64,000 nt of DNA from Anaerohalosphaeraceae bacterium (GCA_037479115.1 JBBFLK010000003.1:1-64000); one strand, 5' to 3'; positions 36,171-48,321 are shown, counted from the stretch's first letter. Program-made: numbers and translations. Notes: a model not told the origin generated them from the sequence alone.

Positions 36171-37718
36171 TCACAGAGCAGCCAGCCATTGTTCGGCCAG
36201 AACAGCCAGGTCCGACAAATCGATTCGCCCGCTGCTGATAAAATCGGCCGCCGGATTCCAGCCTGCCTGCCCGCTTTCGCTCAGCCATGCTCGGCTGAAT
36301 TCCGCCAAATCCAGCATATCCACACGGCCGTCCCGAACGGCCGGGGCAATATCCCCGCGCAGCGGCGGAACAAACCGTTCAAACTCCAGCGCCGGGTCGT
36401 CTCCTAAAAACAGCCCGCCCCCGCGGAGAATCAGATTGTATTCAGTGAACAGATTCATCCCGATGACCCCGTCCAGTTTGCCGCCCTCCGGCGAAGAAAT
36501 TTCCAGCCAGACGACCGGCACGTTGGTAAACTCCAGCCACTGTCCGATCGCCGGAATCTTCAGGGAGTCAAGATAATACCCCGGCGCCTCGATGGTCTCC
36601 CCGGTCACCCCGATAATCGGCACCTGAAATTCCCAGGCGTCCGGGTCCAGCCCCAGCCGGGCGGCGATTCGGTCCCCGATGACGGTGATTTGTGCTCCGG
36701 TATCGAGCATAAAGCGGCTCCGGTCAATCGCCGACCGCCCGCCTTCTGCCAAATCCACACTGTGGACAAAGAACAGACACTGTGAACCGGTTCCGATGAT
36801 GACGGAGGGACTGGACGGGCTGAAATCAAAATTAAAAATATCGTCTATGCTGAATGGAACGTATTGGACGGCGGCGGCGCCGAGCGGACGCAGTTCCAGC
36901 GGGACGCGGTTTCGGAATCGCGGGGCATTCTCATCGCCGGCGGGATAAAAAGTCAGCGAAGGCCCGGTATAGGTCTGGCCCTTATAAACGGATGTCACCG
37001 GCTGGTCATTTCGAATCACCGTCGTCCAAAAGACGCTCATCGGAGTTCCGACGGCGGTCACCAAATCCGGATTTGTGCCCGGGTTTTGCCCCACCAGCAC
37101 GGAGACATTGTATTCGCCCACCATTCCGGCTGTAGAGGGCAGACGGGCCTCCCGGTCCGGAGTCTGGTTGGGTTCCAGCAGATTCAGACCGCCCATAAAC
37201 AGCCCCAGAGGATAACTGACATAAGCATCAACGGAGCCGGTTACGCCGGCTATCGTGATGGTATTGTTGGTCAGATAGGTTCTGTTGTTCAGCCGCAGAG
37301 CAACGGAGGCGGCATAACTGAGAACATGGGCGCTGGCTCCGGTATCGAAAATGCCGACGGCAAAATCCCGCTGCCAGTTGGCGGCTGTAAATTGCCCCAC
37401 AACAGCGGCTGACGGGACGGCATCCAGCTCCAGGTCGGCCAGCCGACGATTGGTGGTAGTAATGACAATCCATGGGACGAAGCCGTCAATCGGAGGGGAG
37501 TCTATCGCATTCGCGGCTGGCAGGCTGAGGGCCTTGGGAAGTTGTTCTTCAGCAGCCGGTTCCTCTTTAACTCGAAAACGGACTTCCGGAATCCTTCCCC
37601 CGCCCGGCGCCCGCCAATCCACCGGACGGCTGACAATCTTCTCCGCCCCGGACGCAAAAGCACAAAGGCTGAACAAGGTTGTCAGGAGCAGAAACCGCAG
37701 AATGGTTTTGTTTTTCAT
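36171..37718 (-). CDS. Secreted two-domain retropepsin-like aspartyl protease with EF-hand-like tail
   Basis: 515 aa, start at MKNKTILRFLLLTT after ACGGAGAGA. A signal peptide spans about residues 1-24. Two retropepsin-like halves each contain Asp-Thr-Gly-Ala: FDTGASAHVLS (Asp125) and LDTGAQITVIG (Asp339), with hydrophobic-Gly elements later in each half (GVIGMNLFTEYNLIL in the second). This suggests an intramolecular pepsin-like pair. The last 65 residues carry two EF-hand/dockerin-like units (DGRVDMLDLAEFSRAWL and SGRIDLSDLAVLAEQWL), a Phycisphaerae surface-protein tail. It is probably cell-surface or secreted. Substrate and any partner are unknown. Confidence 0.8.
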   Translation of the reverse strand: MKNKTILRFLLLTTLFSLCAFASGAEKIVSRPVDWRAPGGGRIPEVRFRVKEEPAAEEQLPKALSLPAANAIDSPPIDGFVPWIVITTTNRRLADLELDAVPSAAVVGQFTAANWQRDFAVGIFDTGASAHVLSYAASVALRLNNRTYLTNNTITIAGVTGSVDAYVSYPLGLFMGGLNLLEPNQTPDREARLPSTAGMVGEYNVSVLVGQNPGTNPDLVTAVGTPMSVFWTTVIRNDQPVTSVYKGQTYTGPSLTFYPAGDENAPRFRNRVPLELRPLGAAAVQYVPFSIDDIFNFDFSPSSPSVIIGTGSQCLFFVHSVDLAEGGRSAIDRSRFMLDTGAQITVIGDRIAARLGLDPDAWEFQVPIIGVTGETIEAPGYYLDSLKIPAIGQWLEFTNVPVVWLEISSPEGGKLDGVIGMNLFTEYNLILRGGGLFLGDDPALEFERFVPPLRGDIAPAVRDGRVDMLDLAEFSRAWLSESGQAGWNPAADFISSGRIDLSDLAVLAEQWLAAL

Positions 37719-37963
37719 ACATCTCTCCGTAAAAGAAGATTCTTGCTTGCAGGACAGGACACAAAAAAATTGACAGATTTTCGAAGCGGCCAAAGGGTTT
37801 ATTTTTACCTATTTTAACGGAGTAGCGTCAAAAATGCAATTTAAAAAACGATTTAAGTTACGCCTGGCGAGGGGGGAAACAGGATATTTTTGGAGGATTG
37901 AACCTTTATGAACCCATATTCCGGCAGTCAGAAAGTATTATTCCTCCCCATTTGATTCAGGAT

Positions 37964-38362: not shown

Positions 38363-38479
38363 CGGTCTTTCCTTTCCGCAAAATATGATTGATTCCCGCA
38401 ATCTGTTTCTCCAGAACCCGGCGGTTCTTTCATTTGTATTATTCAAGAGACGGATTTGTTCGGAAAGGAGATTAAAAAT

Positions 38480-39061
38480 ATGGCTTTTACATTAAAAATA
38501 GGTGAGTCTGCTCCGGATTTTTCACTGCCGGCGACGGACGGCAAAACATACACGCTGCATGATTTTGATTCGGCCCCGGTTTTGGTGATTTTCTTTACCT
38601 GCAACCATTGCCCGTACGTGCTCGGGTCCGAAGAGGTCACCCGACGCACGGCGGAAAAGTTTTTGCCCAGAGGAGTAAAGTTTGTCGCCATCAATTCCAA
38701 CAGCCCCAATACGTATCCGGAGGATTCCTTCGAGCATATGGTTCGGCGGATGCAGGAAAAGAAATTTCCCTGGCCGTATCTGTATGACCGTTCTCAGGAT
38801 GTGGCGCGAAAATACGGGGCCCTGCGAACCCCGCATTTTTATGTGTTTGACCGAAACCGCAAACTGGTTTATACCGGCCGCGAACTGGATAATCCCCGCG
38901 ATCCGAGCAAGAGCACGGTCAACGACCTGGAGAATGCACTGGAGGATGTGCTGGCGGGCCGGCCGGTCCGAAAGCCCCTGACCAATCCTATCGGCTGCAA
39001 CGTCAAATGGGAAGGACAAGACCCGCACTGGATGCCGCCGGATGCCTGCGATTTGGTTTAG
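38480..39061 (+). CDS. Thioredoxin-family redox protein (AhpC/TSA-like fold, CxxC)
   Basis: 193 aa; ATG with AAAGGAG upstream. It begins [21 protein letters not shown], the typical peroxiredoxin/TlpA opening. The redox motif is CNHCPY (about residues 38-43), where this subfamily has Cys-x-x-Cys instead of a single peroxidatic Cys. [31 protein letters not shown] carries the cis-Pro region. It lacks a signal peptide, so it is cytoplasmic. The likely role is thiol-disulfide exchange or peroxide reduction. It is encoded between a divergent flavin protein and a convergent acetyltransferase. Confidence 0.85.
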
Positions 39062-39068
39062 GCGGGCT

Positions 39069-39557
39069 TCAAACGAGAGGTTTTAAATAAATGCATTTGG
39101 AATCCCCGGGGGCATAAAAGTCCGGGACTTCCGCCGCCAGCAGATAGCCGTTCTGCTCATAAAAGGCCCGTGTCGCATCGTAGCGCGGGGTTCCGGAGGT
39201 TTCGACGATAATCAGCCGCCCGTCTTGTCCGCGGATTTTTTCCTCGGCAAATTCGCTCAGCTTCCTGCCGATTCCTCTGCGCTGAAAGAGAGGGTCCACA
39301 GCAATCCAGTACATATCGAAGGTGCCGACGGTGCAGGGAGTCGGCCCGAAGCAAACCCAGCCGACGACTCTGTTTTCCAGCTCGGCTACATAGGATTGAT
39401 ACGTGCATTCCGGTTTTCCGCTGACGGCTTCACAAAAGACTTCGCGAGCGACAGCCAGCTCTCCGACTCGGAAAAAGCCGGTCCGTTCCACGAACTCCAG
39501 CACAGTGGATTCGTCCGAAGGGCGGGCCGGCCGGATTGCGAAAGCAGGGGCTGTCAT
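39069..39557 (-). CDS. GNAT acetyltransferase, last gene of the kamA operon
   Basis: 162 aa N-acetyltransferase with start at MTAPAFAIRPARPSDE. The acetyl-CoA-binding motif is QRRGIGRKLSEFAEE (about residues 92-106), preceded by YWIAVDPLF. Other parts are ATRAFYEQNGYLLAAEVPDFY and the ending CIYLKPLV. Its start codon overlaps the stop of the upstream ATP-grasp ligase by 4 bp. It is not an obvious AblB, but would be placed to N-acylate a product of the aminomutase/ligase genes. Substrate is inferred only from context. Confidence 0.82.
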   Translation of the reverse strand: MTAPAFAIRPARPSDESTVLEFVERTGFFRVGELAVAREVFCEAVSGKPECTYQSYVAELENRVVGWVCFGPTPCTVGTFDMYWIAVDPLFQRRGIGRKLSEFAEEKIRGQDGRLIIVETSGTPRYDATRAFYEQNGYLLAAEVPDFYAPGDSKCIYLKPLV

Positions 39558-40591
39558 AGGGTATTTCCGTTTTGACTGGTCAGCGTATTCCGGGCCCGAA
39601 TCGCCAGGGCGTTTTGAAGCATCAGCCACACGAAGCGTTCATAGGGGATATTGGCGGCTTTCAGGGCGGCTGCAAACCCTGCATCCGGGGAAATGTCCGG
39701 ATTGGGATTGATTTCGAGAATGTACGGATGATTTTTTTCGTCCAGCCGAAAATCGACTCGGGCATAGCCCCGGCAGTCGAGGGCCAGCCAGGCCTGCGTG
39801 GCCAGACGGCGGATTTTCTCGGCCAGCGGCTCTTCGAGGGGTGCCGGAATGATGCGGGGGGTGTGCTGATAGGCAAAGGATTCTTTCATCCATTTGGCGT
39901 GGTAATCCACGATGCGGGGCTTGTCCGGCGGAAAGGCGGAAAAATCAATTTCCGCCAGAGGCAGAATCCGGATTTTGCCGGCGGTTTCGAGCAGCGAGAC
40001 GTTCAGCTCCCGAGAGGGAATAAACTGCTCCACAATAGCGGCCTGATGAAACCGCTGGTGAATGGCCTGGACTTTTTCGACGGCCTGCGGGGATGGAATC
40101 GTCACCACCGAATCCGGATAGATGCCTTCGCTGGCATCGGAACAGGCGGGCTTGATGATGTAGGTGCCTTTTTTGAGTTTGTCCATCGGCAGCGGACGTC
40201 CCGGCTCGACCGTCAGGCCCGCCGGACAGGGAAGACCGGCGGCCGTCAGGATAGCCCGCGTCCGCGATTTGTCCTGAGCCAGAAACAGGGCTTCCGTGCC
40301 GCTGCCGGTGCAGCCGGCTCCAAAGGCCTCGCACAGGGCCGGAACGGCGCAGGCATCCCGCGCCGAGCCCGGAAACTCTTCAATCAGGTTGAAAATCAGT
40401 TTCTCTTTCCGCCGTTTCAGCAGGGAAACCAGATGCTGGAGACTTTCCACGGCCAGGGCTTCGGATTCAATCCCGAGTTTATCGAGGGCCTCCAGGACTG
40501 CTTTGACCTGGTCCAGGACGCCTCCGCGGCTTTCCCGAAAATCCGGGTCGGCCGGGTCAATCTGGTTATACAATACAAGGACGTCTTCCAT
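39554..40591 (-). CDS. ATP-grasp amino-acid ligase (D-Ala-D-Ala-ligase-like), second copy
   Basis: 345 aa from the ATG of MEDVLVLYNQID. The ATP-grasp domain reads KGTYIIKPACSDASEGI (about residue 140), AAIVEQFIPSRELNVSLL (about 185), and the Mg2+/ATP site RVDFRLDEKNHPYILEINPNPDISP near residue 290. It resembles Ddl in the C-terminal half but lacks the bacterial Ddl N-terminal signature. It overlaps the preceding ligase gene by 26 bp. The housekeeping Ddl is elsewhere in this window (47353), so a different carboxylate-amine substrate pair is likely. Confidence 0.85.
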   Translation of the reverse strand: MEDVLVLYNQIDPADPDFRESRGGVLDQVKAVLEALDKLGIESEALAVESLQHLVSLLKRRKEKLIFNLIEEFPGSARDACAVPALCEAFGAGCTGSGTEALFLAQDKSRTRAILTAAGLPCPAGLTVEPGRPLPMDKLKKGTYIIKPACSDASEGIYPDSVVTIPSPQAVEKVQAIHQRFHQAAIVEQFIPSRELNVSLLETAGKIRILPLAEIDFSAFPPDKPRIVDYHAKWMKESFAYQHTPRIIPAPLEEPLAEKIRRLATQAWLALDCRGYARVDFRLDEKNHPYILEINPNPDISPDAGFAAALKAANIPYERFVWLMLQNALAIRARNTLTSQNGNTL

Positions 40592-41588
40592 GGATATTCC
40601 GTTCTTCCTGCGCTCGTTCAAAAGCGCTCTGGAGAATAGCGCCGATCAGTTCTTCATACGTCATGCCTTCCTGGGCGGCAATCATCGGAAGGTCAGAATG
40701 GGTCGGATGCAGCCCGGCCAGGGGGTTGACTTCCAGAAAATACGGCCGATTCTGCGCATCGCACCGTATATCGACCCGGCCTGCATCGCGGCATTCGAGC
40801 ACCTGATAACACCGCAGGGCCAGACTTTCGATGGATTGTTTCAGAGCCGCTTCCCGAAGCGGAGAATACCGAATCCGCGTTTCACATTCTTCTTTGTTCA
40901 GGTAGGAATAAATCGGGGGCTGATTTTTGTCGGCGACCTCGATTTCCATCGTCCCGATTACACGGGCTTTGGACCCCGTGCCGACAATCCCGACGGTGAA
41001 TTCGCGTCCGGCCAGGTACTCTTCCACCAGAACGGGCTGCTTGTGCTGCTCCAGCAGATTTCGGCAGACCCGCTTGAGCTGCGCCGGATTTTCAACTTTG
41101 GAGTTTGGGTCGATTCCCTTGCCGGTTCCTTCAGCCAGCGGTTTGGCAAAAAGAGGATACCGCAGTGCGACGGATTGGATGTCTTCCGCCCGGCGCACGA
41201 CGGCAAACGCCGGCGTGGACAGCCCTTCATACGCCACCAGTTTCTTGGCGACCGCCTTGTCGAGTGTGGCTGCACAGACCAGCGGGTCGGAAAACGTGTA
41301 CGGAATCTGATACAGCTCCAGCACAGCAGGCACCTGGGCCTCTCGACTTCTGCCTTTGAGCCCTTCGGCAATGGTAAAGACCAAATCCCATCGTTTTCCG
41401 GCCGTGAGGGCACGGCACAGCGCCCAGCCGTTGCCGATGCGTTCCACTTCGTATCCGAGCGACTCAATGGCCTGATGAAGGCAGTCAATCGTGCTGTCGG
41501 AGTCAAACTCCGCCACATCCTCCGGCGTGAAGCCGGCGGATAAATAGTCTCTTCGCAAATCGTAAACCAGGCCGATTTTTTTCTTCAT
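40566..41588 (-). CDS. ATP-grasp amino-acid ligase (D-Ala-D-Ala-ligase-like), first copy
   Basis: 340 aa with N-terminus KIGLVYDLRRDYL. It has a Ddl-like first domain (DSDSTIDCLHQAIESLGYEVERIG; WDLVFTIAEGLKGRSREAQVP) and an ATP-grasp core: PLFAKPLAEGTGKGID (about residue 135), PVLVEEYLAGREFTVGIVG (about 185), and RVDIRCDAQNRPYFLEVNPLAGLHP (about 275-300). It is closer to Ddl than the second copy. It is placed between kamA and the second ligase, 35 bp after kamA. It likely activates a carboxylate as acyl phosphate for peptide-like bond formation. Confidence 0.87.
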   Translation of the reverse strand: MKKKIGLVYDLRRDYLSAGFTPEDVAEFDSDSTIDCLHQAIESLGYEVERIGNGWALCRALTAGKRWDLVFTIAEGLKGRSREAQVPAVLELYQIPYTFSDPLVCAATLDKAVAKKLVAYEGLSTPAFAVVRRAEDIQSVALRYPLFAKPLAEGTGKGIDPNSKVENPAQLKRVCRNLLEQHKQPVLVEEYLAGREFTVGIVGTGSKARVIGTMEIEVADKNQPPIYSYLNKEECETRIRYSPLREAALKQSIESLALRCYQVLECRDAGRVDIRCDAQNRPYFLEVNPLAGLHPTHSDLPMIAAQEGMTYEELIGAILQSAFERAQEERNIHGRRPCIV

Positions 41589-41623
41589 AGGATTCTAAGT
41601 TTTCGAGGCTCAGCGGTTCCGAA

Positions 41624-42988
41624 TCATGAGTCGAACAGAAAACCGGTGGCATCCAGTCCGGAGCGATTCCGGATTTTTTCCCGCCGCTGTCCCCGGAGGG
41701 TTCTGGCCGGCTGAATGACCGACGCTTTGCCCGCCGCCAGTTCCCATACGCCGGGGGTTCCGTGGAGTTCGGTCTGTTCATCCGGGATGGTTTCCACGCC
41801 GGGTTCGGGATAGTGAATCAGAAGTCCTTCGTAGTTGCGCAGAACCGTATGAGTCGGGCTCATCGAAACAACATAGTTGGGAAGGACCGGAATTTTGCCG
41901 CCCCCGTGCGGTGCATCCACGACGAACGTGGGGATGGCGATTCCGCTCAGACGCCCCCGCAGATATTCCATGATTTCAATGCCGGCCCGTACGGAGGTTC
42001 GGAAATGCTCTACGCCGCGGACCAGGTCGCATTGATACAGATAATAGGGCCGCACCCGAATCCGCACCAGGCCCCGATACAGTTCTTCGAGCACCTGTGG
42101 CCGGTCATTCACCCCGCGGAGCAGGACGGACTGATTGCCCAGCGGAATCCCGGCATCCGCCAGCTTGCCGCAGGCTGCGGAGGATTCCGCCGTCAGTTCG
42201 TTCGGATGATTGAAGTGAGTATTGATCCACAGCGGGTGGTATTTGCGGAGCATCTGAACCAGGGCATCCGTGATGCGCATCGGCAGCACGACAGGCACCC
42301 GGGTGCCGATGCGGATGACCTGAACCGACGGCACGGAACGAACCGCCGACAGCACCGATTCAAGCGCGGCGTCTGCCATCGTCAGCGGGTCGCCTCCGGA
42401 GATAATCACATCGCAGATTTCCGGATGGGCCTGAAGGTATTCGACGACCTGGCGAAGACGGCGGGAGGAAATCGCCGTTTCCCGCGTGCCGGCGATGCGC
42501 TTGCGCGTGCAGTGCCGGCAGTACATCGAACAGGTTGTCGTGGCAATCAAAAGGGCTCGGTCTTTATACCGGTGAATCAGCCCGGGGACCGGCATGTCCA
42601 CATGTTCTTCCAGCGGGTCCTCGCTCAGGCAGGGCGGGTCCGACAGTTCCTGCGGATTCGGAATGCTCATCCGGAAAATCGGGTCCGATAAATCCGGCAC
42701 GCGAATCAGGGAGGCATAATACGGGGTGATGGCCATCGGATATTTGCTGATGACCGCTTTCAGGTCGGCCCGCTCTGACAGGCCCGGCAGATACGCCGAC
42801 AGCTGTTCGAGCGTGCGAATCCGATTTCGGATTTGCCACCGCCAATCATTCCAGAGCGAGTCTCTGGAAGAAACGGCAGGACAGTCTGGGGCAGGGGAGG
42901 GCGGCTCTTCCGCCCTCGGTCTACTCGGAGGTTCCGAAGATTGCTCTTCTTCACGTGACGCAGCGAGAGAAGTCACTTGGGGCTGCAT
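41624..42988 (-). CDS. kamA: Radical-SAM lysine 2,3-aminomutase family protein
   Basis: 454 aa; start at MQPQVTSLAAS after AAGGAAC (a further in-frame ATG at 43018 would overlap tetR). The radical-SAM [4Fe-4S] motif is CSMYCRHC (about residue 150). The PLP Lys sits in VVDAPHGGGKIP (about residue 340). The two Asp that hold lysine in characterised enzymes are conserved (YQCDLVRGVEHFR and VVDAPHGGGK). That argues for L-lysine to beta-lysine conversion rather than glutamate 2,3-aminomutase. It is longer than EpmB and has an N-terminal Pro/Glu-rich extension (residues 8-40). It sits 17 bp after tetR and before two amino-acid ligases and a GNAT. Confidence 0.88.
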   Translation of the reverse strand: MQPQVTSLAASREEEQSSEPPSRPRAEEPPSPAPDCPAVSSRDSLWNDWRWQIRNRIRTLEQLSAYLPGLSERADLKAVISKYPMAITPYYASLIRVPDLSDPIFRMSIPNPQELSDPPCLSEDPLEEHVDMPVPGLIHRYKDRALLIATTTCSMYCRHCTRKRIAGTRETAISSRRLRQVVEYLQAHPEICDVIISGGDPLTMADAALESVLSAVRSVPSVQVIRIGTRVPVVLPMRITDALVQMLRKYHPLWINTHFNHPNELTAESSAACGKLADAGIPLGNQSVLLRGVNDRPQVLEELYRGLVRIRVRPYYLYQCDLVRGVEHFRTSVRAGIEIMEYLRGRLSGIAIPTFVVDAPHGGGKIPVLPNYVVSMSPTHTVLRNYEGLLIHYPEPGVETIPDEQTELHGTPGVWELAAGKASVIQPARTLRGQRREKIRNRSGLDATGFLFDS

Positions 42989-43005
42989 AAGCTGAGTTCC
43001 TTTTC

Positions 43006-43665
43006 CTATGGTTGCCATTCTTTATTTTCCGGTAAATATCCCAAAAACGAGGATAAGCTCTTTACAAAACTCTGCCGAAGCGGCTGGATGCTGGATTCAA
43101 CCTGTTCCATCTCCATTCCAATCATAGCAAAGGAGAAGAAGCCGAAAACGAACCCTGCCACAGCACACGCCAGACGTCGGATTTTCATCGGGTCAATCTT
43201 TTCTCCGACAAAGGGAGTGAGCAGATGTTCCAGCTCGTGGAGATACCGCTCATAGGGGCCTTCCATTTTTTCGGAAATCCGACGTTCCAGTTTTACCAGC
43301 AGTCTGCCCTGAAATAAAAGAATAAACTTTTCATTTTCTTCCAAAAAAAACTTATAGTGGGCATCCAAAAGGTGTTCGAGCGCCTCCGGAAGGGTTTTGA
43401 TGGGTTTGCTGACGTTTCGGAGCCGTTCGAGCAGTTCATCAATGGATAAATCGACAAGATAGGTAGCGATTTCTTCTTTATCTTGAAAATGCCGATAGAA
43501 CGTGCCTTTGCCGAGGTCGGCTCTTTGGGTAATGTCCTCAATTGTGGTTGCGTCGAGTCCATATTCTGTGAAAACTTCCAGTGCGGCCGCGAGAAGTTTT
43601 CGCCGGGTCCTGTCGGCTCTTTTATCCGCACGAGTTATATTGCTTTTTTCTGCACCAATCATCAT
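43006..43665 (-). CDS. TetR-family regulator of the kamA operon
   Basis: 219 aa; helix-turn-helix is TTIEDITQRADLGKGTFYRHF (about residues 35-55; its N-terminal RADRTRRKLLAAALEVFTEYG is typical). The C-terminal ligand domain has hydrophobic helices (FVFGFFSFAMIGMEME). Start chosen at the first of two ATGs just after the -10 box, so the mRNA would be nearly leaderless; a third ATG at 43677 lies inside the promoter. The promoter is covered by a 32-bp palindrome, consistent with autoregulation. It is 17 bp upstream of kamA, so the whole operon is probably under its control. Confidence 0.85.
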   Translation of the reverse strand: MMIGAEKSNITRADKRADRTRRKLLAAALEVFTEYGLDATTIEDITQRADLGKGTFYRHFQDKEEIATYLVDLSIDELLERLRNVSKPIKTLPEALEHLLDAHYKFFLEENEKFILLFQGRLLVKLERRISEKMEGPYERYLHELEHLLTPFVGEKIDPMKIRRLACAVAGFVFGFFSFAMIGMEMEQVESSIQPLRQSFVKSLSSFLGYLPENKEWQP

Positions 43666-43670
43666 ATAAG

Positions 43671-43702
43671 TGACCATATAGTCAGGTCTGACTATTTGGT
43701 CA
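43671..43702. promoter_or_regulatory. 32-bp TetR-type operator palindrome
   Basis: TGACCATATAGTCAG (43671-43685), two bases, then CTGACTATTTGGTCA (43688-43702): 15+2+15 with one mismatched pair. It covers the -35 to -10 region of the tetR promoter, the position expected for a repressor operator. Confidence 0.8.
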
Positions 43703-43703
43703 A
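43675..43703 (-). promoter_or_regulatory. Promoter of the tetR-kamA operon
   Basis: On the minus strand TTGACC (43698-43703), a 17-bp spacer and TATATG (43675-43680). A transcript starting about 7 bp downstream would begin about 3 bp before the tetR ATG, suggesting leaderless translation. Confidence 0.7.
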
Positions 43704-43823: not shown

Positions 43824-45023
43824 ATGACGGAGCTGCTGGCCCCTGCCGGAACTCTCGAAAAGTTGAAATGGGCGGTCGCCTACGGGGCGGATTCCGTCTA
43901 TTTTGGATTGGAATTTGGTTCTTTGAGAAATTTCGCGGGGAATTTTACGCTTGAAGACGCAAAAGAGGGTCTATTGTATCTTCATAATATGGGTAAAAAA
44001 GGGTATGCGGCACTAAATATTTTTCCATTTTCGGATGAATATAGTCGATTGATTTCCGATGCTTTCGCCCTTCAGGATATGTCGATTGACGGAATTATTG
44101 TTTCCGATATCGGTGTGTTAACCGCGCTGCGAAAAAAGGGGTTCAAAGCCCCGATTCATATCAGTACTCAGGCCAATACACTCAGCTGGCAGACCGCTCT
44201 GGCCTACAAAGAATTGGGCGCTGAGCGGGTCATTCTGGCGCGGGAGTTATCGCTTGAGCAGCTGGCGGAGATTCAAAAACACCTGAAAGGCCGGATGGAA
44301 ACAGAAGTTTTCATCCATGGGGCGGTTTGTTTTTCTTATTCCGGCCGCTGTGCCCTCAGCGACTACATGACCGGCTACCGCGCCAATCGCGGGGAATGCA
44401 AACAGCCCTGTCGGTATCAGTATTTTGTGGTCGAGGAAAAGAGGCCGGGAAAATATATGCCGGTTTTTGAAGACAATCGAGGTCTTTATTTGTTCAATTC
44501 CAAAGACCTCGCTTTATTTGAGTATCTGCCCCAATTAAGAGAAATGGGGATTTGCTCTTTTAAGATTGAAGGACGGATGAAATCGATTCATTATATTGCG
44601 ACTGTCGTCTCTTTTTATCGTCAGCTGCTGGACGGAAAAACCTTCACAAAAGAGCAGGCCCTCGACTGGCTCAATCGCGTGCCCAATCGGGGCTATACAG
44701 CCGGTTTTATCAAGGGCTCGTTTTTGCCGGAGGATTATTCCTGGGACAAAAGTGTGTCGGCGGGCACCAGCCGGTTTGTCGCCAATGTTCTTGAGACTCG
44801 GCCGGATGGGTGCACCCTTCGTGTTCGAAATACAATTGCTTCCGGCGAGACGTTTGAAGTGCTTTCACCCGGCGGACGTCTGTCCAGCGTCCGGATGCCC
44901 CAGCCGCTGAACCATACGGACGGGACGGTGTCAGAGACGGCCAAAAACGGGGACTGTTTGGAATTGCCGGATTCCCTGCCCGAATATGCCGTTTTACGCC
45001 GGATTGAAGTTGAATCAGCATAA
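43824..45023 (+). CDS. Peptidase U32 family protein (RNA-hydroxylation type)
   Basis: 399 aa. N-terminal ELLAPAGTLEKLKWAVAYGADSVYFG is the standard U32 opening; STQANTLSWQTALAYKELGAERVILARELSLEQ forms the barrel. The signature with Cys cluster is FIHGAVCFSYSGRCALSDYMTGYRANRGECKQPCRYQY (four Cys, about residues 170-195), probably an iron-sulfur or metal site. Relatives TrhP and RlhA hydroxylate tRNA or 23S rRNA bases; the old name collagenase is misleading. Length fits TrhP-like members. It directly precedes murC by 41 bp. Confidence 0.85.
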   Translation: MTELLAPAGTLEKLKWAVAYGADSVYFGLEFGSLRNFAGNFTLEDAKEGLLYLHNMGKKGYAALNIFPFSDEYSRLISDAFALQDMSIDGIIVSDIGVLTALRKKGFKAPIHISTQANTLSWQTALAYKELGAERVILARELSLEQLAEIQKHLKGRMETEVFIHGAVCFSYSGRCALSDYMTGYRANRGECKQPCRYQYFVVEEKRPGKYMPVFEDNRGLYLFNSKDLALFEYLPQLREMGICSFKIEGRMKSIHYIATVVSFYRQLLDGKTFTKEQALDWLNRVPNRGYTAGFIKGSFLPEDYSWDKSVSAGTSRFVANVLETRPDGCTLRVRNTIASGETFEVLSPGGRLSSVRMPQPLNHTDGTVSETAKNGDCLELPDSLPEYAVLRRIEVESA

Positions 45024-45064
45024 AGACAGGGATATAAAGGGTGCGTTGTTTTCACGGAGAAGAC

Positions 45065-46459
45065 ATGGAATCGTTTCTTGGCAAAAAATATCATTTTATC
45101 GGCATCGGCGGGATTGGGACCAGCGGGCTGGCCAAGATGCTGCTCAAGCACGGGGCCGTTGTTTCCGGGTCCGATATGGCCGACAGTGCAGTGCTGGAAG
45201 AGATGGCCTCGATGGGAATCCGGATTTGTCTGGGGCACAGTCCGGAGAATATTCCGGCGGATGCGGATGCGGTAGTCATCAGTGCGGCCATTTCGGCCGG
45301 CAACCCGGAGCTGGCACGGGCCGGAGAGCTGGGAATCCGCATTTATAAGTATGCCGAAATGCTCGGTCGGCTGTTTGGGGAATATCAGGGGATTGCGGTG
45401 GCGGGCACGCACGGCAAGAGCACAACCAGCGCCTGGATTGCCTATCTGCTCGAAAAGGCCGGCCGGTCGCCGACGTTTCTGATTGGCGCCCATGTGCCGC
45501 AGATGGGGGGCTCCAGCGGAATCGGAGACGGGCCCTTTTTTGTGGCGGAGGCCTGCGAATATGACCGAAGTTTCCTGAATCTTCGGCCTTCCATCGGGGT
45601 GATTCTGAATATCGAGCAGGACCATCTGGATTACTACAGAGACGAAGAGGAAATCGTGGACGCCTTTACGGACTTTGCCGCAGGCATCCGTCCGGGAGGC
45701 GTGCTGATTGCCAACGGCCAGGACAAAAATACCCTTCGTCTGCTTCGCCGTCTGAACGGACAAATTCAGGTTCGAACGTTCGGACGCAGCGAATCCTGCG
45801 ATTACTCCGCCGGCCGGCTGTTTCTGCGGGAAGGGTGTTATGAGTTTGAGTTGTGCGAAAGAGGAGCGGTTCTGGGGCTGGCGAGGCTGTCGATTCCGGG
45901 AATCCACAATGTCGATAATGCCCTCGCGGTGACGGCGGCCTGTCTGTCCGCCGGCTTGTCGGCGGAGGCCCTGCTGCAGCATCTGGGGGGCTTTACCGGC
46001 ATTGACCGCCGGCTGATGCTCAAAGGTCAGGCCCGCGGCATTATTGTCCTGGATGATTATGCACACCATCCTACGGAGATTCGGGCCTCTCTTTTGGCAA
46101 TTCGAGAGCGCTACCGTCCCCGGCGGCTCTGGTGTGTTTTCCAGCCCCATCAATACAGTCGGACCCGTTTTTTACTTGATGATTTTGCAGAAAGTTTTAA
46201 TCTGGCCGATACAACCATCGTCCCGGAAATCTATTTTGTGCGGGATACCGCCGAGAGCCGCAGGATGGTGAATGCGGAAGTGCTGGTGGAACGGATACGC
46301 CGAACCGGAAGCGAGGCGGTTTTTATCCGCGATTTTCCGGGCATTGCGTCTTATTTGAAAGAACATGTACAATCCGGCGATGTGGTGGTAACGATGGGTG
46401 CCGGAACCATCTGGAAGGTGGCCGATGAATATCTTCAGTGGCTTAGAACACATTGTTAA
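45065..46459 (+). CDS. murC: UDP-N-acetylmuramate-L-alanine ligase
   Basis: 464 aa; start at MESFLGKKYHFIGIGGIG after GGAGAA. It has the N-terminal UDP-binding Rossmann domain, AVAGTHGKSTTSAW (ATP P-loop, about residue 110), NIEQDHLDYYRDEEE (metal/His, about 182-195) and VLDDYAHHPTEI (about 335). It adds L-Ala to UDP-MurNAc in peptidoglycan synthesis. Its stop lies 35 bp inside murB. First of a murC-murB-ddl-ftsQ run on the plus strand. Confidence 0.95.
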   Translation: MESFLGKKYHFIGIGGIGTSGLAKMLLKHGAVVSGSDMADSAVLEEMASMGIRICLGHSPENIPADADAVVISAAISAGNPELARAGELGIRIYKYAEMLGRLFGEYQGIAVAGTHGKSTTSAWIAYLLEKAGRSPTFLIGAHVPQMGGSSGIGDGPFFVAEACEYDRSFLNLRPSIGVILNIEQDHLDYYRDEEEIVDAFTDFAAGIRPGGVLIANGQDKNTLRLLRRLNGQIQVRTFGRSESCDYSAGRLFLREGCYEFELCERGAVLGLARLSIPGIHNVDNALAVTAACLSAGLSAEALLQHLGGFTGIDRRLMLKGQARGIIVLDDYAHHPTEIRASLLAIRERYRPRRLWCVFQPHQYSRTRFLLDDFAESFNLADTTIVPEIYFVRDTAESRRMVNAEVLVERIRRTGSEAVFIRDFPGIASYLKEHVQSGDVVVTMGAGTIWKVADEYLQWLRTHC

Positions 46460-47303
46460 GGAAAAGTGTCCGCTGGCTCCTTATACCTGGTACGGCCTGG
46501 GCGGGCCGGCGGATTATCTGATTCTTCCGCAAAGCCGGGAGCAGATTGCCGAGGTCCTTCGCCGGTGTCAGGACCATCAGCTGCCGGTGCGGGTCCTCGG
46601 ATTCGGCTCCAATCTGCTTGTGAGCGATGAAGGGGTGCGCGGAGCGGTGATTCGGCTGGAGAATCCGGTTTTCTGCGAGTACAAGTTTGACGGCACGACC
46701 CTGAAAGCCGGAGCCGGAGCGAATCTGAACAAGCTGGTTCTCGAATCAGTCCGAAAAGGCCTGGGGGGGCTTGAAGCCCTGACCGGAATTCCGGGGTCCA
46801 TCGGCGGGGCGGTTCGGATGAATGCCGGCGGTCGGTTCGGGGACCTCGGTTCGGTGGTTCAAAGCGTGACCGTTATGAATGCGGAGGGGCAGATTTTCGA
46901 AAAGGCCAAGCCGGAGCTGGTGTTTGATTACCGCAGCACCAATATTACAGCCAAAGTGATTCTGGAGGCCACAATCGAATTGACGGAATCAGACCCGGAA
47001 TCGCTTCTGCAGGTGATTAAAGAGGTCTGGATTTACAAAAAGAACACGCAGCCGCTGGATACCCACAATGCCGGCTGCATTTTCAAGAATCCGCGAGGCC
47101 TGTCCGCCGGTGCTCTGATTGACCGGGCCGGGCTGAAGGGCACGCAAATCGGCGGGGCGGTGGTCAGCGAAAAACACGCCAACTTTATCATTGCGGAAAA
47201 AGGATGCCGGAGCTCCGATGTCAGGCAGCTGATTGATTTAATCCGTACCCGAGTCCGCGAGAAGTTTGATGTTCAGCTCGAGCTGGAGATTGAAATCTGG
47301 TAG
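46425..47303 (+). CDS. murB: UDP-N-acetylenolpyruvoylglucosamine reductase
   Basis: 292 aa FAD enzyme making UDP-MurNAc. TWYGLGGPADYLILP (about residue 20), VRVLGFGSNLLVSDEGVRG (FAD), LTGIPGSIGGAVRMNAGGRFGD (about 120) and the C-terminal GCIFKNPRG with QIGGAVVSEKHANFII (type-I MurB ending) are clear. The start is at MNIFSGLEH after GGAAGGTGG, within the end of murC. Confidence 0.94.
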   Translation: MNIFSGLEHIVKEKCPLAPYTWYGLGGPADYLILPQSREQIAEVLRRCQDHQLPVRVLGFGSNLLVSDEGVRGAVIRLENPVFCEYKFDGTTLKAGAGANLNKLVLESVRKGLGGLEALTGIPGSIGGAVRMNAGGRFGDLGSVVQSVTVMNAEGQIFEKAKPELVFDYRSTNITAKVILEATIELTESDPESLLQVIKEVWIYKKNTQPLDTHNAGCIFKNPRGLSAGALIDRAGLKGTQIGGAVVSEKHANFIIAEKGCRSSDVRQLIDLIRTRVREKFDVQLELEIEIW

Positions 47304-47352: not shown

Positions 47353-48321
47353 ATGAAATCGCAAAGAAACAGATTTAAGACGGTGGCGGTGTTGGCAGGG
47401 GGCATCGGCGAAGAGCGTCCGGTCAGCCTTCAAAGCGGGCAGAATGTGTATCAGGCCCTCCAAAAAACGGATTTGGATGTGCGTTTTGCAGACATTCAGC
47501 CGGAGGATTTGTCGATTCTGGATGACCCGTCGATTGACATTTTTTTCCTGATTCTGCACGGCCAGTTCGGCGAGGACGGGCACCTGCAGAAGATTCTGGA
47601 AGAGAAAAACCTGGTCTATACGGGTTCGGATTCGGCGGCCAGCTGTCTGGCTTTTGACAAATGGGCCGCCAAAAAGCGCTTTTGTGAGCAGGCTATTCCG
47701 ACGCCGCCGGCTGTGTATGTGGATGCCGAGGCGGTTGAGGCGGAGCTGCTGGAGGCGATAAACGGTTTGGGGGGCGAGCGTTTTGTGGTCAAGCCGCTGC
47801 GGCAGGGCAGCAGTGTCGGGGTGCAGCTGGTCCGAACGGCTCGCGAGGCGCTGGATGCCGCGCAGGATTGTTTCCGCCGCTTCGGAGACTGTATGGTGGA
47901 GCGGTTTATTCCGGGACGGGAAATCACGGTCGGAATCGTGGACCAGATGATTTTGCCTGTGATTGAAATCCGTCCCAAACGTTCTTTTTATGATTATCAG
48001 GCCAAATATATCGATGAGCAGACGGAGTTTTTGTTTGACACATTCCCGAATGCTCGCGATGTTGCGCTTTTCCAGGAAACCGCGCTGAAAAGTTTCCGGG
48101 CTTTGGGATGCCGGCACTTCGGACGGGTGGATATGATTGTGGATGCGCAGGGGACTCCGTGGGTGTTGGAAATCAATACTCTGCCGGGGTTTACGAGCCA
48201 TTCGCTGCTTCCGATGGCGGCGGCGCGGGCAGGCCTTGATGCAACCGGATTGTGTCTGAAAATCCTGGAGGCGGCCTGGATGGATTTTCAGAAACGGGCA
48301 AGTGAGACCAGAGAACTATGA
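47353..48321 (+). CDS. ddl: D-alanine-D-alanine ligase
   Basis: 322 aa; starts MKSQRNRFKTVAVLAGG after GGAAG. N-terminal GGIGEERPVSLQSGQNV (substrate/His-like region), FLILHGQFGEDGHLQKILEE (about 70), ERFVVKPLRQGSSVGVQLV (ATP-grasp, about 150), FIPGREITVGIVDQ, and VDMIVDAQGTPWVLEINTLPGFTSHSLLP (about 265-290) are all as expected for bacterial Ddl. It makes the D-Ala-D-Ala dipeptide for peptidoglycan. Its last 4 bp overlap ftsQ. Confidence 0.94.
   Translation: MKSQRNRFKTVAVLAGGIGEERPVSLQSGQNVYQALQKTDLDVRFADIQPEDLSILDDPSIDIFFLILHGQFGEDGHLQKILEEKNLVYTGSDSAASCLAFDKWAAKKRFCEQAIPTPPAVYVDAEAVEAELLEAINGLGGERFVVKPLRQGSSVGVQLVRTAREALDAAQDCFRRFGDCMVERFIPGREITVGIVDQMILPVIEIRPKRSFYDYQAKYIDEQTEFLFDTFPNARDVALFQETALKSFRALGCRHFGRVDMIVDAQGTPWVLEINTLPGFTSHSLLPMAAARAGLDATGLCLKILEAAWMDFQKRASETREL

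Follow-up and report, generated by a model that had tools for sequence, protein, structure and literature searches.

The operon and its proposed product

What could a lysine aminomutase, two relatives of the D-alanine ligase Ddl and an acetyltransferase make together, when their genes follow one another behind the gene for a TetR-family repressor? The question is raised by a five-gene locus in a stretch of 64,000 nt from Anaerohalosphaeraceae bacterium (GCA_037479115.1 JBBFLK010000003.1:1-64000), here called the window, over whose full length all coordinates are counted. With slightly better than even confidence, we read this locus as an operon for a dedicated, TetR-controlled pathway, whose predicted product is a small N-acetylated amide or peptide containing beta-lysine. 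All five genes lie on the minus strand in the order tetR, kamA, ligase 1, ligase 2, and GNAT when the best start codons are taken (Table 1), with gaps of 17 bp between tetR and kamA and 35 bp between kamA and ligase 1, and overlaps of 26 bp between the two ligase genes and 4 bp between ligase 2 and GNAT. An earlier note on this DNA, the original prediction, had placed the genes in this order on one strand with exactly these spacings, and its family assignments agree with the Pfam and NCBIfam domains, that is, TetR_N in the repressor, Radical_SAM and LAM_C in KamA, Dala_Dala_lig_C in both ligases, and GNAT in the acetyltransferase.

Table 1. Genes of the operon and the candidate regulatory site, with coordinates in the window.
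Feature	Coordinates	Strand	Evidence or remark
TetR-family repressor	43006..43662	-	PF00440, 58 bits
KamA, lysine 2,3-aminomutase-like radical SAM/PLP (pyridoxal phosphate) enzyme	41624..42988	-	alternative ATG at 43018; TIGR03820, 511 bits
Ligase 1 (LigA), ATP-grasp ligase of the Ddl fold whose substrate pocket is altered	40566..41588	-	profile, model, and alignment
Ligase 2 (LigB), second ATP-grasp ligase of the Ddl fold	39554..40591	-	fused to GNAT in many relatives
GNAT N-acetyltransferase, not AblB	39069..39557	-	PF13508/PF00583
Two 14-bp palindromic operator half-sites, candidate TetR site	43671..43684 and 43689..43702		unique in the genome

Conservation of the gene set

Genome contigs were scanned with ligase 1 alone, which yielded 80 loci, 43 of them with enough flanking sequence; genes in these loci were labelled by tblastn with the window proteins and by a simple gene caller. 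KamA, ligase 2, and GNAT are each present in 41 of the 43 loci, and all four enzymes in 39. The loci carry the labels Planctomycetota, Lentisphaerae, Kiritimatiellae, Verrucomicrobiota, Sumerlaeota, Myxococcota, Acidobacteria, and Chloroflexi, these being record labels, mostly of metagenome bins, taken as given. The same four genes occur reordered in distant planctomycetes, for instance as ligase 1-ligase 2-GNAT-KamA (L134, L136, L137, L148, L149, and L160). No further gene family is found repeatedly next to the cluster.

Co-occurrence was assessed in 294 planctomycete genomes, drawn evenly, with ligase 1 called at E <= 1e-60. Ligase 1 was found in 56 of these genomes, and a KamA scoring approximately 380-516 bits against TIGR03820 in 59. 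Both are present in 54 of the 56 carriers, whereas only 5 of the 238 other genomes have such a KamA (Fisher p ~1e-50, uncorrected for phylogeny). The two exceptions apparently reflect contig ends, KamA being truncated in G043 and the G090 contig being short. G196, which had been scored as having KamA only, holds a complete though diverged cluster, and in G125 and G143 KamA is present yet far from the ligases. Given that 39 of the 43 loci hold all four enzymes and that co-occurrence is 54/56 against 5/238, the arrangement is far beyond chance. The conservation in related genomes that the original prediction had proposed as a check is therefore observed, and the conserved set and its co-inheritance support the operon as a functional unit. 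Viral copies of the cluster were not found, and the plasmid relatives are only rhizobial ATP-grasp proteins, 32-34% identical and in other contexts. Two loci (L143 and L144) contain a ligase 1-ligase 2 pair beside an aminotransferase gene and without an adjacent KamA, which is encoded elsewhere in the same genomes.

KamA aminomutase

Residues 14-369 of KamA match the lysine 2,3-aminomutase of Clostridium subterminale (2A5H) with E 1e-138. The radical SAM cysteines CxxxCxxC, R134, the lysine-binding residues D293 and D330, and the PLP residue K337 are kept in all 61 cluster KamAs, so that the retention of the lysine-binding aspartates, claimed earlier for the window protein, extends to the whole set. 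We conclude that KamA is a variant predicted to work like lysine 2,3-aminomutase, and the cluster probably makes beta-lysine.

One of the closest known systems is AblA/AblB, which makes N-epsilon-acetyl-beta-lysine in methanogens and some bacteria, here in G010 and G026, and in which an acetyltransferase likewise follows a lysine 2,3-aminomutase. The structural zinc site (C268 and a C-terminal cysteine trio) is kept in the planctomycete AblA of these two genomes (L155 and L156), whereas the zinc ligand C268 is replaced by another residue in every cluster KamA, and the C-terminal tail of the window protein contains no cysteine. The window KamA scores 511.2 bits against the AblA/KamA equivalog TIGR03820, below its cut-off of 525.4, in contrast to 775 bits for the true AblA of relatives. 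Further differences are that the GNAT is not AblB and that two ATP-grasp ligases are added. Genuine AblA above the cut-off was found in five genomes, none of which has ligase 1, a number too small for significance. Since branch supports in the KamA tree are weak and AblA proteins fall among the cluster KamAs, we do not claim a single origin of the latter.

In the two relatives with canonical AblA (L155 2887-6705 and L156 3154-7701), which have no ligase cluster, the gene is followed by a solute:sodium symporter-like gene and then by AblB. The genome of the window also encodes a second KamA paralogue (G000:C9 ~38716-39852; L154 4717-5853, minus strand) adjoining hisH/hisF. D293 and D330 are both missing from it, and it reaches none of the curated NCBIfam cut-offs for specific KamA equivalogs; thus its substrate is probably not lysine.

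Two ligases with a replaced D-alanine pocket

The AlphaFold models of ligase 1 and ligase 2 (mean pLDDT, the predicted local distance difference test, 90.4 and 90.9, respectively) both show the full Ddl fold, with best Z-scores of 32.1 over 298 aligned residues and 34.6 over 316, each at a root-mean-square deviation of 2.5. The residues for ATP and Mg, K97, K144, K215, R255, D257, E270, and N272, are present in all aligned LigA sequences, and in LigB all are kept save for a rare exchange of D and E at 257 or 270. The proteins reach only 125 and 167 bits against the curated Ddl cut-off of 243 bits, and the host genome (3.0 Mb, 99.85% complete) has a separate housekeeping ddl in its dcw cluster, about 6 kb away (ATP-grasp match at 47536-48291, plus strand).

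The D-alanine pocket of Ddl was taken as E15, H63, S150, Y216, S281, and L282, numbered as in Ddl and read from the sequence alignment rather than from model coordinates; the E15 column is poorly aligned. His63 is replaced by Glu in both ligases. Tyr216 is replaced by Glu in 65 of 67 near ligase 1 proteins and by Trp in all ligase 2 proteins, and Leu282 by Asp in near ligase 1 and by Gly in ligase 2, while Ser281 remains in near ligase 1 and is mostly lost in ligase 2. Across the cluster ligases these replacements are mostly invariant. The comparison with Ddl that had been suggested earlier thus bore out the fold and the catalytic residues but not the D-alanine pocket, and with the real ddl located in the dcw cluster, the earlier claim that the ligases are not housekeeping enzymes stands. 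The acidic residues gained by ligase 1 at positions 63, 216, and 282 would suit a cationic partner. In distant ligase 1 members E at position 216 often gives way to R or W, so specificity may vary between lineages.

Other ATP-grasp arrangements were seen in single loci. A 666-aa open reading frame (L132 4313-6313, plus strand) fuses two ligase-1-like ATP-grasp domains directly after KamA and possibly stands in for ligase 2. A further type of ATP-grasp ligase adjoins the cluster in L079 (7681-8757, minus strand), with similar proteins near a few other loci.

Acetyltransferase, its fusions, and an additional amidohydrolase

The operon acetyltransferase (ACETYLTRANSFERASE) had been likened to AblB; this assignment has to be given up, as the AblB profile TIGR03827 gives no match to it even at E 5, whereas the true AblB encoded near AblA in G010 and G026 scores 344.5 bits. 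Ligase 2 and GNAT form a single open reading frame in 40 of 64 loci, a fusion being scored where both share an uninterrupted frame, and for this reason the GNAT probably has a ligand or product of ligase 2 as its substrate.

In 14 of the 43 loci, KamA and ligase 1 are separated by a gene of some 600 codons. The N-terminal third of its product is a weak GNAT match, and the C-terminal part is a classical deacetylase (PF00850, 257 bits) nearest to acetylpolyamine amidohydrolases; the match to one of these, PDB 6phr (E 4e-72), includes the aligned PPGHHA and DFHHGNGTQ region. The domain in the relatives differs from that enzyme in being fused to a GNAT and placed within an operon. The gene is present in G002 and G005, which belong to the same genus, and absent from the window's genome, G001, G003, and G004; in G017 two scraps of it remain at the same place. 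This distribution suggests that it is probably ancestral but dispensable and was lost in the window's genome. In two distant planctomycetes the place between KamA and ligase 1 is taken by genes for cysteine-rich CxxC proteins, YkgJ-like by eye (L142 6884-7582 and L146 6032-6541, both minus strand).

Probable regulation by TetR

The palindrome TGACYAWWYRGTCA occurs twice before tetR (Table 1), its only two sites in the genome. They lie upstream of, and overlap, possible tetR starts, within the intergenic region shared with a gene for a U32-type peptidase, and several relatives have related palindromes ahead of tetR. The region 43671-43702 is probably the binding site of TetR, which would make tetR the autoregulated first gene of the operon. 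Since the palindrome has no other site in the genome, the repressor appears to be dedicated to the operon. TetR is encoded in 25 of the 43 loci, and its match to the ScbR family is weak (73 bits, cut-off 150). No known riboswitch or other RNA was found upstream of the operon in the window, or close to the cluster in nine loci that lack an evident tetR; a flavin mononucleotide riboswitch and tRNAs were found elsewhere only. This apparently dedicated operator, the ligase 2-GNAT fusions, and the presumably lost GNAT-amidohydrolase gene did not figure in the original prediction.

Proposed pathway and alternatives

We propose that KamA would probably convert L-lysine to beta-lysine by radical SAM/PLP chemistry. 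Ligase 1 would then use ATP to activate a carboxylate as acyl phosphate and join it to an amine, one of the two partners being beta-lysine. A second amide bond would be formed by ligase 2, either on the product of ligase 1 or on a partner that ligase 2 supplies. Finally, the GNAT, a member of its class by profile, would add acetyl as a cap to an amino group, either of what ligase 2 uses or of what it makes. In other lineages the GNAT-amidohydrolase fusion could both add and remove acetyl on a diamine-like moiety. The likeliest role of the product would be that of a neutralised intracellular solute or stress metabolite, and this is the weakest step of the proposal.

A similar logic is seen in the synthesis of the osmolyte dipeptide N-acetylglutaminylglutamine amide, the genes for which encode a GNAT joined in one protein to an ATP-grasp ligase, leading to an acetylated peptide; the cluster differs from it in having no recurrent amidotransferase, another, Ddl-type ligase, and beta-lysine chemistry in addition. 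TIGR03103 was not among the best 25 matches listed. The compound itself is covered in PMC1224877.

Several points weigh against a dedicated pathway to an acetylated beta-lysine amide. KamA is slightly under the AblA equivalog cut-off and has no zinc site, and its substrate may be arginine or another basic amino acid. The R or W at position 216 of distant ligase 1 proteins counts here as well, control by TetR suggests a ligand rather than salt, and the cluster has no recurrent neighbour that is a transporter, peptidase, or stress gene. The product and the activities are themselves predictions.

The alternative that survives best, though unlikely, is an exported natural product or signal, such as an antibiotic or autoinducer in the form of a small beta-lysine peptide; TetR would then sense the product or a precursor, and the GNAT would provide self-protection. 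The antibiotics streptothricin and viomycin contain beta-lysine units, and a TetR gene in first position with a dedicated operator and weak ScbR similarity would suit such a role, as would the patchy distribution (56 of 294 genomes). In these antibiotics beta-lysine is used by non-ribosomal peptide synthetases (NRPS), whereas the ligases here are stand-alone ATP-grasp enzymes. Against this alternative, no NRPS, exporter, or tailoring gene is recurrent nearby, and one minimal set is kept across the labelled phyla, a breadth that antibiotic clusters do not usually show.

It is improbable that the ligases modify the cell wall by placing beta-lysine on peptidoglycan precursors. In favour are the Ddl fold of both and the position of the operon next to murC, murB, and ddl in this genus, but this adjacency is confined to close relatives, the set includes no UDP-MurNAc-type ligase or transpeptidase, and a fused acetyltransferase fits poorly.

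Slightly less probable again is that the ligases serve something else and that KamA and the acetyltransferase alone follow the logic of AblA/AblB. That the two systems were never found together, albeit in a handful of AblA genomes, is in line with this, but the GNAT is unrelated to AblB at the profile level, the two ligases equal KamA in conservation, and fusions join the GNAT to ligase 2.

Two further roles are unlikely. Lysine fermentation, which begins with KamA in clostridia, has very little in its favour here: the genome has no BKACE (Kce), a search for the OAM dimer domain, run without a positive control, gave none, and the ligases of the operon are biosynthetic. Least probable of all is a supply of beta-lysine for modification of elongation factor P in the role of EpmB, a member of the same superfamily, as the window genome (G000) has only lysyl-tRNA synthetases and no EpmA (genX) above the cut-off, KamA scores 254.7 bits against TIGR03821 (cut-off 369.3), and the set has two ligases and a GNAT instead.

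In open-licence literature no paper was found that joins the aminomutase with ATP-grasp ligases or a histone deacetylase, although an earlier mention in comparative genomics is possible; PMC9337991 and PMC3543383 treat ablA/ablB only. The cluster is conserved and, in this literature, apparently undescribed. We tentatively raise the possibility, itself doubtful, that it represents a new metabolite class in Planctomycetota, Verrucomicrobiota-type, and other bacteria, namely an acetylated oligopeptide of beta-lysine that a dedicated pair of Ddl-type ligases would build with neither ribosome nor NRPS, with an acetylation/deacetylation switch through the GNAT-amidohydrolase in some lineages.

If the proposed pathway is correct, about one fifth of the planctomycete genomes sampled encode a short route, which family models would label as a stray lysine aminomutase plus D-alanine ligases, to an unrecognised beta-amino-acid metabolite. 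It would also yield new amide ligases whose substrate pocket is shifted, serve as a compact test of metabolite prediction from conserved gene sets, and give reason for caution over Ddl and AblB labels on such genes.

Neighbouring genes

The U32-type peptidase gene (43824-45023, plus strand), divergent to tetR, heads the dcw genes murC (45041-46459), murB (46398-47303), and ddl (at about 47.5 kb). On the other side, a gene for a thioredoxin/AhpC-like protein (38456-39061, plus strand) is convergent with GNAT and has an orthologue near the cluster in G002 and G005 too. Further along, a gene at 36171-37793 (minus strand) encodes a long protein in which retropepsin-like DTGA motifs are repeated and the C-terminal tail resembles dockerin, both recognised by eye. 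This protein is conserved next to the cluster of G001 (L014 2165-3742, minus strand).

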